Of a DNA stretch of 64,000 bases, positions 40,665 to 48,304 are shown one piece after another (position 1 is the stretch's first letter; each line of letters starts with the position of its first letter). The notes below the pieces were generated by a model. The model was not told the origin of the DNA, did no database searches, and worked only from the letters and a program-made list of their open reading frames with translations. The position numbers were made by a program, and so were the translations under genes. Source of the DNA: an uncultured Methylococcaceae bacterium (GTDB lineage: Bacteria; Pseudomonadota; Gammaproteobacteria; Methylococcales; Methylomonadaceae); NCBI GenBank assembly GCA_903928685.1, contig CAIYRS010000105.1:19819-83818 (forward strand). The letters run 5' to 3'.

Positions 40665-41327
40665 CTAAGGCAATCTAAGTTGCGCTGCCAACAAGTCAAA
40701 ATCAGCTTGTTGTTGGTAGGGCAATATCCCCAGCAATGGCGCAGGTATTAAGGTTTTCAGGGTGTCGATATTGTCTTGCATACACAGCATTTCTGGTTGT
40801 ATGCAGTTGGCTATCCAGCCCGCGCAGGTTAGGCCGGATTGGTTGATGGCTTGATAGCTCAGTAGCGAATGGTTGATGCACCCCAGTTTTATCCCCACCA
40901 CTAAAATAACCGGCAAATTTAAGGCGATGGCTAAATCGCTGATGTTTTGTTGGTTGTTAATCGGCGCGTACCAGCCGCCTGCACCTTCTACCAATATTAT
41001 CTCGGCTTGCGGTTGCAACTGTTGAAAGATGGCCAACACTTTCGGCAATTGCACGGGATTGTCGCGGCCTGCTATGTGCGGCGAAACGGGCAAGGCGTAG
41101 GCATAAGGATTCAGTAGCTGATAATCGACTGCCAGCGAAGCTTCCGCTTGTAGTTGCAAGGCATCGTCATTTTTTAATTCCCCTCCCTCATCGTTACAGC
41201 CAGCGGCGACGGGTTTCATGCCGATGACCGATAAGCCTTGCTGTCGGCAATGGCGCATTAATGCGGTGGTTGCCCAGGTTTTGCCGACGTCGGTGTCGGT
41301 GCCAGTAATAAAGTAGCCTTGTTTCAT
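40665..41327 (-). CDS. bioD: Dethiobiotin synthetase
   Basis: 220 residues. It begins MKQGYFITGTDTDVGKTWAT with the P-loop GTDTDVGKT, then KPVAAGC and VEGAGGWYAPI. It closes the ureido ring of dethiobiotin from DAPA, CO2 and ATP. It is the last gene of bioF-bioH-bioC-bioD and overlaps bioC by 4 bases. Confidence 0.95.
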   Translation of the reverse strand: MKQGYFITGTDTDVGKTWATTALMRHCRQQGLSVIGMKPVAAGCNDEGGELKNDDALQLQAEASLAVDYQLLNPYAYALPVSPHIAGRDNPVQLPKVLAIFQQLQPQAEIILVEGAGGWYAPINNQQNISDLAIALNLPVILVVGIKLGCINHSLLSYQAINQSGLTCAGWIANCIQPEMLCMQDNIDTLKTLIPAPLLGILPYQQQADFDLLAAQLRLP

Positions 41328-42103
41328 GTGCGGGTCAGGATGTTGATGATGTCAAAAGTTGCCGGAATGCCTTGGGCAGTGCGGTGGTTTTCGTAAGCGG
41401 CTTGCATGGCTTGCAGACGGGCTTTGCTGGTGAGCTGTGGGTTTCGGCCTTGGATAACGTGGCCTGCGCCCAGTTGTTTTAGTTCGCGCAGTAAATCCAG
41501 CACTTGCGGGTAATGCGATTGCTGTAGGGTTTGCTGGAATTGGCTATCAACAAATCCGGCCTGTTGCAGTTGCTGTTGCAGGCTGGGTAAATCGTAAAAA
41601 TCGTTAACGTGGCGGTAGTGGTCAACCTCGCGCCACGCCGCCGCCAATTCCTGCAAACTTTGATTGCCGAAGGTGGAAAACAGCAGCCAGCCGCCGGGTT
41701 TTAACACCCGCCGTAATTCTTGCAAGACTTTATCCAGCGGATAACACCATTGCAGCGCCAAGTTGGAGCAGATGGTGTCGATGCTGTGGCTTGCTAGCGG
41801 CAGTTGTTCGGCATCGGCGCAAATATAGCGGATGTTGCTGGCGGCTAGTAATTTTTGCCGCGCGGTTTGTAACATCGGCAAAGCGATGTCTACGGCGATG
41901 ATTGGCGACTTCGGCGCTTTTGCGAACAGTTCGCCTGTTAAAAAGCCAGTGCCGCAGCCTAAATCGAGCAGATTGCCGCCCAAACTGTTGTTCGGTAATT
42001 GTTTTAATAAGGCGATGCCTGCGCGGCGTTGTAAGTCGGCAACGCTGTCGTAATGGTTTGCCGCGCCAGCGAAAGCCTGTTTGATGGCGGTTTTTGCTAG
42101 CAT
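41324..42103 (-). CDS. bioC: Malonyl-ACP O-methyltransferase
   Basis: 259 residues, class I SAM methyltransferase. AFAGAANHYDSVADLQRRAG at the start is the BioC signature; GGNLLDLGCGTGFLTGEL binds SAM, and SNLALQWCYPLDKVLQELRR follows. It methylates malonyl-ACP so that fatty acid synthesis can build the pimelate chain. It overlaps bioH by 7 bases and bioD by 4. Confidence 0.95.
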   Translation of the reverse strand: MLAKTAIKQAFAGAANHYDSVADLQRRAGIALLKQLPNNSLGGNLLDLGCGTGFLTGELFAKAPKSPIIAVDIALPMLQTARQKLLAASNIRYICADAEQLPLASHSIDTICSNLALQWCYPLDKVLQELRRVLKPGGWLLFSTFGNQSLQELAAAWREVDHYRHVNDFYDLPSLQQQLQQAGFVDSQFQQTLQQSHYPQVLDLLRELKQLGAGHVIQGRNPQLTSKARLQAMQAAYENHRTAQGIPATFDIINILTRT

Positions 42104-42873
42104 CTGTGCTGATCCATAAAGGCGTTGATGGCGGTCAACAGTTCTGCCGGATGCGATAAAAACGGCGTGTGGGCGGCTTGTTCCAAAACCTGAATGTCGG
42201 CGGCGGGCAGTAATTGCTTCAACGGTGCTTGCAGGGCGGCGGGGATGAGGCTGTCATTTTTACCGAGTAACACCAAGATTGGCGCGTTGATGGCAGCTAA
42301 ATCGGCGCGTAAATCGCTGTCTTTAAGAATGGCTAAGCCGCCTTGCAGGGTTTCGGTGCTAGGTGCTGGGCAGGCCAACACCGCTGTTTTTAAGGTTTTG
42401 CCTAAGGATTTGGCATTCGGCAAGGCCATCACTTGTATGGATAAAAACCGCAGCAAAGTGCCGTGGGCATCGGCTTGTAATTTGTCGGCGAAACTTTCCA
42501 GCACCACCGGACGTATGCCAGGCCAATCCGCTTGCTGCAAAAAGCACGGGTTGCCAGCCAGTAAAATCAACGCCGAAGCCCGCGCCGGATAACGGCGAAC
42601 GAAAGCCATCGCCACGGTTGCGCCTAAAGACCAGCCCAGCCAGCAGCAGGGCTTATCGGGCAAGGTTTCTGCCAAGCTGTCGATGATGTTATCTAAGGTA
42701 AACGGCGTTAATGCCGGGCTATGCCCGTGACCGGGTAAATCGACCAGAATGACTTGATGCTGCGCTGCTAGTTGCTGGGCAAAGTCCAGCCAAATGCCGC
42801 TGTGCATGCCCCAGCCGTGGATTAGTACGATAGGGCTGCCAGTGCCTAGGGTTTGCGTATGGATGTGGATCAT
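42097..42873 (-). CDS. bioH: Pimeloyl-ACP methyl ester carboxylesterase
   Basis: A 258-residue alpha/beta hydrolase. [20 protein letters not shown] forms the oxyanion region, [15 protein letters not shown] carries the nucleophile serine (GWSLG), [13 protein letters not shown] the acid, and [11 protein letters not shown] the histidine. It releases pimeloyl-ACP and ends chain growth begun by BioC. Here it lies between bioF and bioC, unlike E. coli where it is unlinked. Confidence 0.94.
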
Positions 42874-44024
42874 GTGTTTGCCTTTTCTAGCGCATTCAGC
42901 AGGCTATTGACGTGATGCGGTTCATGCTCAGCCGATAAAGTCACACGCAATCTTGCCGTACCCTGCGCCACGGTCGGCGGGCGTATCGCGCTGACTAAAA
43001 ATCCGGCTGCTAAAAGCGCTTGGCTGATTGCCACGGCGCGTTGGCTATCACCAATCAGTATCGGTTGGATAGGCGAAGCGGAGGGCATTAACGATAAGCC
43101 CAATTGCTCTGCGCCTGTGCGGAATTGCTGGATTAAGGCGAGCAGTTTTTCGCGTCGCCAGGGTTCGCTTTGGATGATGTGTAAACTGGCTCGGGTGGCT
43201 TCGGCAACGGCGGGTGGCAGTGCGGTGGTGTAAATGTAGGTGCGTGCTGATTGGATTAAGGTTTCAATCAATACCTCTGAACCTGCGACAAACGCGCCGA
43301 AAGTGCCGAAACCTTTGCCTAGCGTACCCATCAGCACTTGCACATCGTCTTGCCCTAGATTGGTTTGCGCCAACAAGCCGCCGCCGTTTACGCCCAACAC
43401 GCCTAAGCCGTGGGCATCATCGACCATTAGCCAGGCATCGTGTTGTTTTGCTACTGCCGCCAGTTCTGGCAACGGCGCGGCATCGCCATCCATGCTGAAT
43501 ATGCCATCGGTAACCACCAGTTTGTTGCCGCTGGCTTCGGCTAGCAATTCTGCCAAATGGGCGCTGTCGGCATGGGCATAGCGCTTGAATTTTGCCCCCG
43601 ACGATAAGCCGCCATCCAATAAAGACGCGTGGTTAAGGCGGTCTTCCAAGACGGTATCGCCGCGCCCGACTAAGGCGTTAATGACGCCGATGTTTGCCAT
43701 GTAACCTGTGGAAAATAATAAGGCGCGATCACGTCCGGTAAAGGCTGCGAGTTCTTCTTCTAGGGCGTGGTGGGCGTGGCTGTGTCCGCAAATTAAATGC
43801 GCCGCGCCGCTGCCAACGCCATAGGTATCGGCGGCATTTTTAAAGGCTTTTACGACGGCGGGGTGGTTTGCCAAGCCAAGGTAGTCGTTGCTGCAAAAAT
43901 TGATGACGGTTTGGTTTTGTAATTGCAAAACGATGCCTTGGGGCGAGTCGATCACCCGGCGGCTACGGTAAAGCCCTTGTTGTGCTTGGGTTTGCAATTG
44001 GGTTTGTAAATGCGAAAAGGCCAT
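42870..44024 (-). CDS. bioF: 8-amino-7-oxononanoate synthase
   Basis: A 384-residue PLP enzyme of the alpha-oxoamine synthase family. [53 protein letters not shown] and [20 protein letters not shown] (the PLP lysine is in TLGKGFG) are intact. It condenses pimeloyl-ACP with alanine. It is first in this run; bioB, often upstream, is not in the window, and a dispersed repeat lies before the gene. Confidence 0.96.
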
Positions 44025-44450: not shown

Positions 44451-46517
44451 CTAATTCGAATCCACCTTACAAATTTGCATTGCCAGCAAATCAGCTTGCA
44501 AGATTTCTAATTGGCTGCGATGGCTTTCCGGTAAGACTGCCAAATCTTGCCAATGGATGCTGTCATTGTTGTGGCTGGCGCTGATAAACCAGCAATCATC
44601 GGGGATATGTATGCCACGGGCGGCTAGCAATTGGCGTACTGGCGGGCGGTTTGCCAGGGTGGCGAATGCTTGGGCGTTATCGTTAGCGGCGTGGTCAATG
44701 AAAACCACTAATGGGGCAAAATCAGTCATTAAGTTAATTTTGCTTAAAAATTTAGCTAGCAGTTCGGCTTGTTCGGTATCAGAAGTGGGCAATAGCATAG
44801 CCATCAATTTTTGGCTGAAGTTTTGAAAGCCAATGGGTGCTATGGATTTGGCGATTAAGTTCAATAGGCTGAGTGGCGCTAGCAGATTGATGGCGGGGTA
44901 GGCTATCGCCATCGGTTGCAGTAAGCCGCGCTGCCAAAGCCCATGGGCTTTTTGTTGCCACGGTTGTTCTTGTGCATTTTCGTTGGCGGCGGTAAAAAAA
45001 TCTGCCGCGTTAACAATGCGTATTTGTTGATTGCAGGCTTGCAAATGGCGGCGTAAGTTTTCTTCCCGGCTATCTATGCAGAAAATTAGCGGTTGCGGTT
45101 TTGGCTGCCCATGCAAAAGCGTTTGCTGGTAATGGTGTTGCTGCGCGTAATGCCAGATTTTGCTGCGATCGTTAGTGGTGAATTTATCTAAGCTGGCGAG
45201 CATGGCGGTTAAATCGCTGTCATCTAGCGCTTGCAGTTGTAAGGCATTCATACCTAGGTGTTGGCAGAGCCGGAATAAGCGCCAGCCGCTGTCGCTGGCG
45301 GTGTGCTGGCTTTGGTTGAGTTGCCAGGTGTGCAGTAAATCGGCGAGTTGTTGCCAGTCGCTGCGGCATTGGCGTTCTGAACCTGCGCGGATAATCAGGG
45401 CTTCTGCCAATTCGGTCAGGTATTCCGGCAATTTGCCCGCATACAGGCGTTTGCGGATTAAAAATTCGGAAAGGTTTTTTTGGAAATAGGTTTCTAAGGC
45501 GCTGACTTTGGCTTCCACTTTCCATAAATCGTGGCAGATTTGGTTTAGCCATAAGCGATCTAAAGTCAGCCGTATCGCTAAGTAATCGGCAAGCGCGGCT
45601 TCGGTTACGGCTTGCCCATTGAGCAAGCCAGGCCATTCGGGCAGTTCCTGCACCAAGCAGTGCAAGTAGCCTGCCCATTGCGGTTTGGGGATGGCTAAGC
45701 GCAGCAGTTGCAGGCTGATGTTGTCCAGCGCTTGCTCTGGCAGTTCGGCGATGATGTCTTTCCAATCCGGCAATTGGTGCAAGAACAAGTTGGCATCGTA
45801 AGGCACCATCGCCCGCCAAGCGGCGTACAAACCTAGTGATTGATAGTCGGGTAAAGGCCATGTTGCGTAGCCATTATCTTTGGCGGATGCGTATAGCCGC
45901 AGTAATTGCGGGCGCACGCTATCCAAGCTATCTGTGCCGCTTAAGGCCAGTACCCAGCCGCGTAAGCTGAGGCCGTTGCCTAATTCGGCGAGCAGTTGCT
46001 TAAATTCACTTTCTGCTTGTTGGCGGGTTTGTTGGTGGACGTTACTGGCTTGCCCGGCGGTTTCGGTGCAGGTCAGCAGGGTTTCTGGATGCTGGTCGGC
46101 ATCGGAGAGTGCCAGTTTTTCAAGTAGGCTTGCCCATAATTGCGGTACGGCAATGGCGGGTTTTTCACCTGCTAGAAATGTGCTCGCCACGGCGGCTGGC
46201 ACATCGGTTTGCAGCTGCTGTAAGGCGTGATGGGTGTTTAGTTGCCACTGTAATTGGCTGTTGTTGAGGCTAGGGAAATCATAAAGCAAGGCTAGCTTGG
46301 CGATTTCGGGAGCGTCTGTTTGTTGGTCAAAGTTGGCGAATGCGGCGGTTAAGTCGTAATCGTTAATGCGGCCTTGTTGGTAAAGTTGCCGATAATGGGC
46401 TTCTGGTAAATAGTCGCCAACGGTTGTAGCCGATGCCGCTAGTGTTTGTTGGAGATTGGCTACGATGTCGGCAAGTTGCGCCCGATATTTGGCAAGTTCT
46501 ACGGTGTTGATTTGCAT
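44451..46517 (-). CDS. dabA: DUF2309 protein, DabA-like, lacking the second zinc cysteine loop
   Basis: 688 residues from the ATG at 46517; TTG at 46520 is possible. DabA proteins are usually about 800 or longer. The beta-carbonic-anhydrase-like core begins with LIFCIDSREENLRRHLQ (Cys480, Asp482). The distal site, normally GHGS-x6-NNP...CGAC before NARVLA, is shortened here to VVFIDHAANDNAQAFATLAN, keeping His609 but deleting the cysteine. The ensuing ARGIHIPDDCWFISASHNND aligns with DabA. With DabB it would accumulate bicarbonate by converting CO2 on the cytoplasmic face; loss of the ligand puts this in doubt. Confidence 0.82.
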   Translation of the reverse strand: MQINTVELAKYRAQLADIVANLQQTLAASATTVGDYLPEAHYRQLYQQGRINDYDLTAAFANFDQQTDAPEIAKLALLYDFPSLNNSQLQWQLNTHHALQQLQTDVPAAVASTFLAGEKPAIAVPQLWASLLEKLALSDADQHPETLLTCTETAGQASNVHQQTRQQAESEFKQLLAELGNGLSLRGWVLALSGTDSLDSVRPQLLRLYASAKDNGYATWPLPDYQSLGLYAAWRAMVPYDANLFLHQLPDWKDIIAELPEQALDNISLQLLRLAIPKPQWAGYLHCLVQELPEWPGLLNGQAVTEAALADYLAIRLTLDRLWLNQICHDLWKVEAKVSALETYFQKNLSEFLIRKRLYAGKLPEYLTELAEALIIRAGSERQCRSDWQQLADLLHTWQLNQSQHTASDSGWRLFRLCQHLGMNALQLQALDDSDLTAMLASLDKFTTNDRSKIWHYAQQHHYQQTLLHGQPKPQPLIFCIDSREENLRRHLQACNQQIRIVNAADFFTAANENAQEQPWQQKAHGLWQRGLLQPMAIAYPAINLLAPLSLLNLIAKSIAPIGFQNFSQKLMAMLLPTSDTEQAELLAKFLSKINLMTDFAPLVVFIDHAANDNAQAFATLANRPPVRQLLAARGIHIPDDCWFISASHNNDSIHWQDLAVLPESHRSQLEILQADLLAMQICKVDSN

Positions 46518-46526
46518 CAATAAGAC

Positions 46527-47999
46527 CTATAAGGCGGTTTGCCCGATGGCATGGCTGATTTGTTTGACGCTGGCGTTGGCGAATTTTAGCCACGCGGCAG
46601 GCATGATACCTAGGGCGGTGATGCCGATCGCCAAAACGCCAGCGGCAAACAATTCGCGGGTTTGCAAATCTTGATAAGGGTGGTTTGCGGGCTGTTCCGC
46701 GCCGGTAAATAACAGGCTTAAGGTGCGTAAGCTATAGGCGGCGGTAATTAAGCTGCCTAACACAAAAAATACCATTAAGCCTTGCCATTGTTGCAGGCCG
46801 CCAATGAAGGCGTGGATTTCAGCAATAAAACCGATGGTGCCGGGCATACCCATAAGCGCCAATAAGCTGAGCGTCATTAGCAGGGCAAAACGCGGCATGA
46901 CGGCTAATAGTGAGCGGTAATTTTGGATATTCCAGGTTTGGCTGCGTTGGTACAACAGGCCCAGAAGTAAAAACAGCGAGGCGGCGATTAAGCCGTGTGC
47001 AGTCATTTGCAGCACTGCGCCGTAGATGGCGGTGCTGTTTAAGCTGGCAATGCCGCCTAAGATAATCGCCATTTGGCTGATGCAGGAGTAGGCGATCATG
47101 GCTTTGAGATCGGTTTGCCGCCATGCCAACAAGCCGCCGTAAATCATGCCGAATAAAGCCAAAAATATCAGCAATGGTTGTAAGGCGTGGGTGGCTTCGG
47201 GCAGCATCACCACCACTCTTAATAAGGCATACGCGCCCATTTTCAGCAAAATGCCAGCCAGTAAAATGGTGACAGGCATCGGTGCTTCAACCAAGGCTAA
47301 GGGCAGCCAGCCATGCAGCGGAAAAATCGGCATTTTTACCCCGAAACCGATAATAAAGCCCAGTAATACCAGTATTTGTTGCGGTAAGGGCATGTCTTTT
47401 GCGGCTTGGTTCATTGATGCCATTAACGAGCCGCTGTGTTCTAGTCCGTGTTGGCTAATCGCTAATAAGCTGATGAGCATACACAGCGAGCCTGCCAAGG
47501 TGTAAAGCACGAAGTTAAGGCTGGCGGCATGGCGGCGTTTACCGCCCCAGCGGTCGATAAGAAAAAATAACGAGATTAAGGTGATTTCCCAAAATACGTA
47601 AAACAATGCCCAATCTTGGGCGGAAAACACGCCTAATAGGCCGAATTCCAGCAATAAAATGGCGATGTGATAGCCTTTGATTTTGCTGGTGATGGTGGTC
47701 GAGACCAGTATGCTTACCGCAAATAATAGGCTGGTCAGCAGCAGCATCGGCAACGATAGGCCATCAACACCCAGCGCGTAGGCACTGCCTAAATTGGGGT
47801 TGATGGGGAAATATTCTGAAAATTGTAAGTCGGCGGCATCTTGTTGGAATTGGCTGAGTAGCCAGCAACTGAGCAACAAGGCCAAAGCCGCGCAAAGGTT
47901 GGCAATCAGGCGGATAAGGAAGGCATGGCTGCCGGGCGTAACCGCTAACAGCAAGACCCCAATAGCGGGCGTCCAGAGTAGCAGGCTGAGTATCCCCAT
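46527..47999 (-). CDS. dabB: NuoM-like proton-translocating subunit, DabB partner of DUF2309
   Basis: A 490-residue membrane protein with about 14 helices, of the Mrp/complex I antiporter family. LGVDGLSLPMLLLTSLLFAV, FYVFWEITLISLFFLIDRWG (conserved Glu), GFIIGFGVKMPIFPLHGWLP (conserved Lys) and WRQTDLKAMIAYSCISQMAI are intact. It resembles NuoM more than NuoL. It stands 10 bases ahead of the DUF2309 gene with no other nuo genes around, so a cation-coupled partner of DabA is more likely than a respiratory subunit. Confidence 0.85.
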   Translation of the reverse strand: MGILSLLLWTPAIGVLLLAVTPGSHAFLIRLIANLCAALALLLSCWLLSQFQQDAADLQFSEYFPINPNLGSAYALGVDGLSLPMLLLTSLLFAVSILVSTTITSKIKGYHIAILLLEFGLLGVFSAQDWALFYVFWEITLISLFFLIDRWGGKRRHAASLNFVLYTLAGSLCMLISLLAISQHGLEHSGSLMASMNQAAKDMPLPQQILVLLGFIIGFGVKMPIFPLHGWLPLALVEAPMPVTILLAGILLKMGAYALLRVVVMLPEATHALQPLLIFLALFGMIYGGLLAWRQTDLKAMIAYSCISQMAIILGGIASLNSTAIYGAVLQMTAHGLIAASLFLLLGLLYQRSQTWNIQNYRSLLAVMPRFALLMTLSLLALMGMPGTIGFIAEIHAFIGGLQQWQGLMVFFVLGSLITAAYSLRTLSLLFTGAEQPANHPYQDLQTRELFAAGVLAIGITALGIMPAAWLKFANASVKQISHAIGQTAL

Positions 48000-48053: not shown

Positions 48054-48233
48054 TGTCCACGAAAAACACGAAATAGCACGAAAATGCAATTTGGTAAGGG
48101 CTTTCAGGTTTTGTAGGTTGGGTTGCATGCTTTTGGCAACCCAACGTTTACGCTCATCCTGTTGGGTTGCGAAAAGCGTGCAACCCAACCTACGTTTTCC
48201 CAATGATAAGGCCTTTCGTGTCGTTCCTGGACA
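48054..48233. repeat. About 180-bp element with GTCCACGAAAA-type terminal inverted repeats, copy 2
   Basis: Starts TGTCCACGAAAAACACGAAA and ends TTTCGTGTCGTTCCTGGACA, an imperfect 20-base inverted pair. The core is a different nested hairpin, GTAGGTTGGGTTGCATGC with GCGTGCAACCCAACCTAC. It lies between dabB and the glycosyltransferase gene; no gene is present in 48000-48304. Confidence 0.78.
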
Positions 48234-48304
48234 CTATAAATAAGCGTAACATCAGTGCGTCACTATGGCTTGCAATTATACGGTGGGCAGGGCTGTTGGC
48301 AAGC

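Follow-up and report, generated by a model that had tools for sequence, protein, structure and literature searches.

An incomplete zinc site in a DabA1-type protein of an uncultured Methylococcaceae bacterium and its relatives

Can a DabA protein that has lost part of its zinc site still serve an inorganic-carbon pump, and, if not, what might it be kept for? DAB complexes link CO2 capture to membrane energy. The question is raised by a 64,000-nucleotide stretch of an uncultured Methylococcaceae bacterium, probably a methanotroph of the Methylococcales (assembly GCA_903928685.1, contig CAIYRS010000105.1, positions 19,819 to 83,818; hereafter the window), which encodes a DabA1-type protein next to a NuoM-type antiporter-like subunit, NuoM1. 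Comparison with related genomes suggests that the pump was retired or reassigned once backup pumps had taken over.

Zinc site and domains of the window DabA1

The dabA1 reading frame matches PF10070 (E 1e-64, 219.7 bits versus a cut-off of 25). It was aligned with DabA2 of Halothiobacillus neapolitanus (PDB 9rd0; C351, D353, R355, H524 and C539) and about 100 relatives. C351, D353, R355 and H524 are matched by C480, D482, R484 and H609 (numbered from the ATG), and a gap with aligned flanks takes the place of C539 and C542. The zinc-ligand set C351/H524/C539 is incomplete, and the Asp353-Arg355 dyad (D482, R484) is complete. These results uphold the initial annotation, which had described a shorter-than-usual DabA without the distal zinc cysteine but with C480-x-D482 and His609: the protein has 688 amino acids from the ATG at 46517, or 689 from a TTG, compared with the 1050-1130 usual for DabA1-type proteins. 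The deletion of the cysteine stretch is likewise real, but it is more than the one small gap first described. Three in-frame deletions, restricted to the carbonic-anhydrase part, remove ~21 residues around DCGAC, another ~40 that follow C-x-D-x-R and almost the whole beta-carbonic-anhydrase-like domain II, of which 11 of ~140 residues aligned. No remnants of the lost C-terminal domain were found downstream of dabA1. By comparison, the N-terminal domain shares 56% identity with intact genus copies, the same level as intact copies of other genera. In the stretch aligned with the DabA2 membrane finger, 49 hydrophobic residues align at low identity, with Glu444 replaced by Asn.

That the window DabA1 should lack carbonic-anhydrase activity, hydrating no CO2, is well supported, as the initial annotation had proposed among its options, because the protein has lost the second cysteine, domain II and the GHGS context, because C539A in DabA2 abolishes function and growth support (PMC13144422), and because relatives have also lost C-x-D-x-R and the histidine. 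A non-catalytic role for the protein is plausible. A literature search for zinc-less DabA found no paper describing one.

The NuoM-type partner and a five-subunit set

The NuoM1 gene precedes dabA1 with six bases between the frames, and its product keeps all wire residues (E138, K222, E238, K253, K299, H335 and E394). The pair had been annotated as DabA/DabB-like, and this stands for the PF10070 protein and for a NuoM-like (PF00361) partner, but not for the partner as a DabB orthologue: its closest relatives are NuoM3 and NuoM2 (M3 and M2), whereas NuoL′ (DabB1), encoded on contig C21 in this genome, comes closest to the DabB of C108 and matches DabB proteins at E 1e-43 to 1e-56. By these affinities, the window pair is a DabA1 plus an extra NuoM-type subunit, with DabB1 encoded elsewhere in the genome. 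NuoM1 was also rejected as the NuoM of respiratory complex I. In its own genome (G000, rated 99% complete) a search for complex I antiporter subunits found no separate NuoL/M/N set, the six PF00361 proteins being those of the DAB1-type module and two DabB. These two DabB accompany two canonical DabA with full sites.

The full set comprises NuoM1, DabA1, DabB1/NuoL′, NuoM2 and NuoM3, the last three on contig C21 here. Relatives outside the genus often carry NuoM1-DabA1-NuoL′-NuoM2-NuoM3 in one row (L055, L071 and L047), and in most genus members NuoL′-M2-M3 lies apart from NuoM1-DabA1. The ancestral five-gene order resembles COG3002 (YbcC/DUF2309) operons of clade C, in which DabA precedes a NuoL homologue and further NuoM subunits are encoded; split operons and zinc-less DabA, as found here, are not described in the parts of that source consulted (PMC5700660). 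The DAB2 system of H. neapolitanus (DabA2/DabB2; PMC13144422) has, like the window, a PF10070 protein that includes an N-terminal domain, the C-x-D-x-R motif and a finger-like stretch, but its partner is a NuoL-like DabB, whereas the window has a NuoM-like partner and a DabA without C539 and domain II. Intact DabA1 of the genus (L085-L090) and of other Gammaproteobacteria (L143-L153) are homologous to the window protein throughout, and NuoM1-DabA1 order is common to the genus; they differ in having about 1100 amino acids and a complete zinc site, the genus copies also with complete wire residues. MpsAB of Staphylococcus aureus pairs the same DabA family with a PF00361 subunit and has been proposed as a Na+/HCO3- symport, as cited in PMC13144422.

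Zinc sites and proton wires in relatives

Zinc-site states were compared across 20 genomes of the genus and, in total, ten zinc-dead genomes and 33 others, the dead and intact classes having been assigned by the analyst after the residues were seen. NuoM1, a PF10070 protein and DabB1 each occur in 20/20 genus genomes. Intact full-length DabA1 is present in seven of these (twice in G188), and an eighth, in G248, is interrupted by a contig end. The zinc-dead genus members are the window genome, five genomes without an intact C-x-D-x-R, His or Cys (G028, G032, G108, G280 and G291) and two with the N-terminal domain alone (G157 and G220); partial erosion with ligands retained is seen in G072, G170, G189 and G197. 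A second genus has two dead genomes, G163 and G219, and an intact one, G285. Full-length relatives outside the two genera retain the zinc site with the single exception of L069 (G242), where one Cys-to-Tyr substitution at C539 (DYGAC) alters a DabA1 that is otherwise intact, and DabA1-type proteins sampled from other Gammaproteobacteria retain the motifs wherever the stretch is readable. Another unusual form is the 1558-amino-acid DabA of L082 (4892-9565, minus strand), with a 482-residue N-terminal extension lacking any Pfam match; frames of comparable length occur in G003 and G049. A NuoM1-DabA1 fusion is not claimed, as the extension has no PF00361 match.

Cys-less DabA1 is thus recurrent, with at least four losses. 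The initial annotation had raised the question of a Cys-less clade; a tree built from NuoM1 together with the N-terminal domain requires four changes to account for the dead forms, and a single loss of the zinc site is rejected, although one clade of all eroded genus rows, that is, one origin of relaxation, is not (approximately unbiased test, p 0.105). The window is sister to G189/G197 (support 97/94).

Erosion extends to the membrane subunits. Near-invariant NuoM1 residues (E138, K222, E238, K253, H335 and E394) are changed in 13/15 dead or partial pairs, all being retained in the window and G028. DabB1 E150 is present in 24/24 intact versus 2/15 eroded genomes, and NuoM3 E143 is Gln in 8/8 covered eroded genus genomes, the window genome among them. 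NuoM2 residues E149, R233, H240, E248 and K263 are unaltered in every eroded genome with the column covered. Loss at invariant positions in eroded genomes is 0.10-0.22 for NuoM1, 0.15-0.41 for DabB1 and 0.07-0.15 for M3, compared with about 0.01-0.05 in intact genomes, and the rate for NuoM2 is the nearest to normal of the subunits. With its zinc site gone and its wires nearly complete (those of NuoM1, DabB1 and NuoM2 entirely so), the window genome thus seems to represent erosion at an early stage.

The coding sequences themselves appear constrained. Frames are open throughout the genus over large divergence, and in G108 the NuoM1-DabA1 pair, DabB1, M2 and an M3-like gene are dispersed on one contig with all frames open. 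The ratio of non-synonymous to synonymous substitution rates (dN/dS) is 0.23-0.26 in eroded dabA pairs versus 0.14-0.19 in intact ones, and ~0.11 versus 0.04-0.09 in their NuoM1 partners. Identity to intact genus copies in the CxDxR core falls from 0.82-0.89 in intact relatives to 0.17-0.56 in zinc-dead forms; in the N-terminal domain it is 0.50-0.65 versus 0.46-0.56. A canonical DabA occurs in 10/10 zinc-dead genomes versus 17/33 others (Fisher p 0.007, ignoring relatedness).

Features of the NuoM1-DabA1 locus in window coordinates.
Feature	Position	Strand	Basis
Promoter-like TTGCCA-16-TATAAT, 11/12 positions, upstream of the pair	48275..48302	-	Consensus match only
NuoM1, NuoM-type antiporter-like subunit, PF00361, 490 amino acids	46527..47999	-	Profile match
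DabA1-type protein, PF10070, zinc site incomplete	44451..46520	-	Profile match and alignment
N-terminal helical domain kept, residues 1-445	45183..46517	-	Alignment
C480-x-D482, first zinc ligand and Asp of the Asp-Arg dyad, then R484	45072..45080	-	
Hydrophobic stretch aligned with the DabA2 membrane finger (alpha16/17), kept	44808..44942	-	Alignment; function from PMC13144422
His609, matched to zinc ligand H524; context DHAAN, not GHGS	44691..44693	-	
In-frame deletion site removing the DCGAC stretch (C539, C542)	44679..44690	-	Alignment

Just upstream of the pair, at 48113-48193, lies an inverted repeat with GTTGGGTTGC arms of 33 nucleotides, 94% complementary. A bioF-bioH-bioC-bioD run occupies 40665-44024, downstream and on the same strand. 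Gene neighbours were rejected as functional partners, since msrB/pepA/IMPDH in relatives and bio/glycosyltransferase genes here are different neighbours and look unrelated.

Retained scaffold or decaying remnant

The window would encode two members, NuoM1 and the truncated DabA1, of a DAB1-type membrane complex with five subunits, completed by the three proteins from contig C21. Without its zinc site and domain II, DabA1 would hydrate no CO2, and its retained N-terminal domain and finger-like stretch would most likely still let it cap the antiporter-like subunits on the cytoplasmic side, non-catalytically. CO2 capture would have passed to the two canonical DabA/DabB pairs. From sequence, we infer the five-protein assembly, the inactivity of DabA1 and a residual ion-handling or scaffold role. 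On balance, and with somewhat better than even confidence, we favour, over plain decay, a reading in which a redundant DAB1-type complex retains its inactive DabA1 as a cap or scaffold at the membrane without catalytic function, because frames are open, dN/dS is low, the N-terminal domain is unchanged, the NuoM2 wire is spared and the genes were retained after scattering in G108. More tentatively, the whole pump may have become a non-catalytic complex in which DabA1 and the neutralised-wire DabB1, NuoM1 and NuoM3 scaffold the sole retained ion path, that of NuoM2, making a new ion-translocating or regulatory machine.

Several observations weigh against a retained role. Synonymous divergence of the window dabA1 from all other copies is near saturation and gives no reliable dN/dS. 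The structure prediction from seven sequences is weak (predicted local distance difference test 62, predicted template modelling score 0.41) and leaves a substitute ligand possible; a Foldseek search of this model against the PDB gave no match. About four independent losses contribute contrasts, and the second-DAB link is not significant once relatedness is counted; because independent pairs give four contrasts, the association of zinc-site loss with a second canonical DAB is just suggestive. Nor is the order of loss uniform, because the close sisters L049/L050 kept the zinc ligands and lost wire residues. In L140 (G290; 88% complete, 5% contamination) NuoM2 is interrupted by stops beside an intact DabA, and M2 is split in the zinc-dead genome G163, so some modules seem to be decaying; eroded rows also have longer branches on the tree. 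The split M2 and the longer branches speak for plain decay, in which a DAB1-type complex redundant beside a second DAB drifts towards loss, often carbonic-anhydrase part first, leaving a remnant without a function worth naming. The slightly higher dN/dS of eroded dabA, the loss of invariant positions in NuoM1, DabB1 and M3, and the restriction of zinc-site loss to genomes with a canonical DabA point the same way. Decay, the main rival, has an appreciable chance of being correct, though one short of even; it sits poorly with dN/dS well under 1 in frames open genus-wide, with an N-terminal domain conserved to the level of intact forms and a spared NuoM2 wire, and with genes kept after operon dispersal.

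The initial annotation had also suggested a mechanistically different inorganic-carbon pump, which finds no support here. Another residue might replace the missing cysteine so that CO2 is still hydrated, and the retained C480, D482, R484 and His609, the complete NuoM1, DabB1 and NuoM2 wires of the window genome and other cysteines in the protein, such as that in IPDDCWF, would fit such an altered metal site. However, intact copies, L090 for example, share the IPDDCWF cysteine, which hence is no replacement, domain II and the GHGS context are lost along with the cysteine on which DabA2 depends, and relatives have lost the remaining ligands too. With no evident zinc-site replacement, sisters losing the wire and two canonical pairs in the genome, we consider a working pump improbable. 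Still less credible is an assembly or sequencing artefact: the draft genome has 117 contigs and is the only one of its species in the comparison, but three separate in-frame deletions in one protein part, with no internal stop and no downstream remnant, would hardly arise this way, and nine other genomes show losses of a similar kind.

Proteins without the zinc site are among the PF10070 matches that are routinely annotated as inorganic-carbon transporters, and such annotations call for caution. For the mutual dependence of DabA and the membrane subunits of DAB complexes, the related species offer natural variants in which the zinc site is missing, the proton wire is missing or neither remains while the genes are intact, a ready separation-of-function series.
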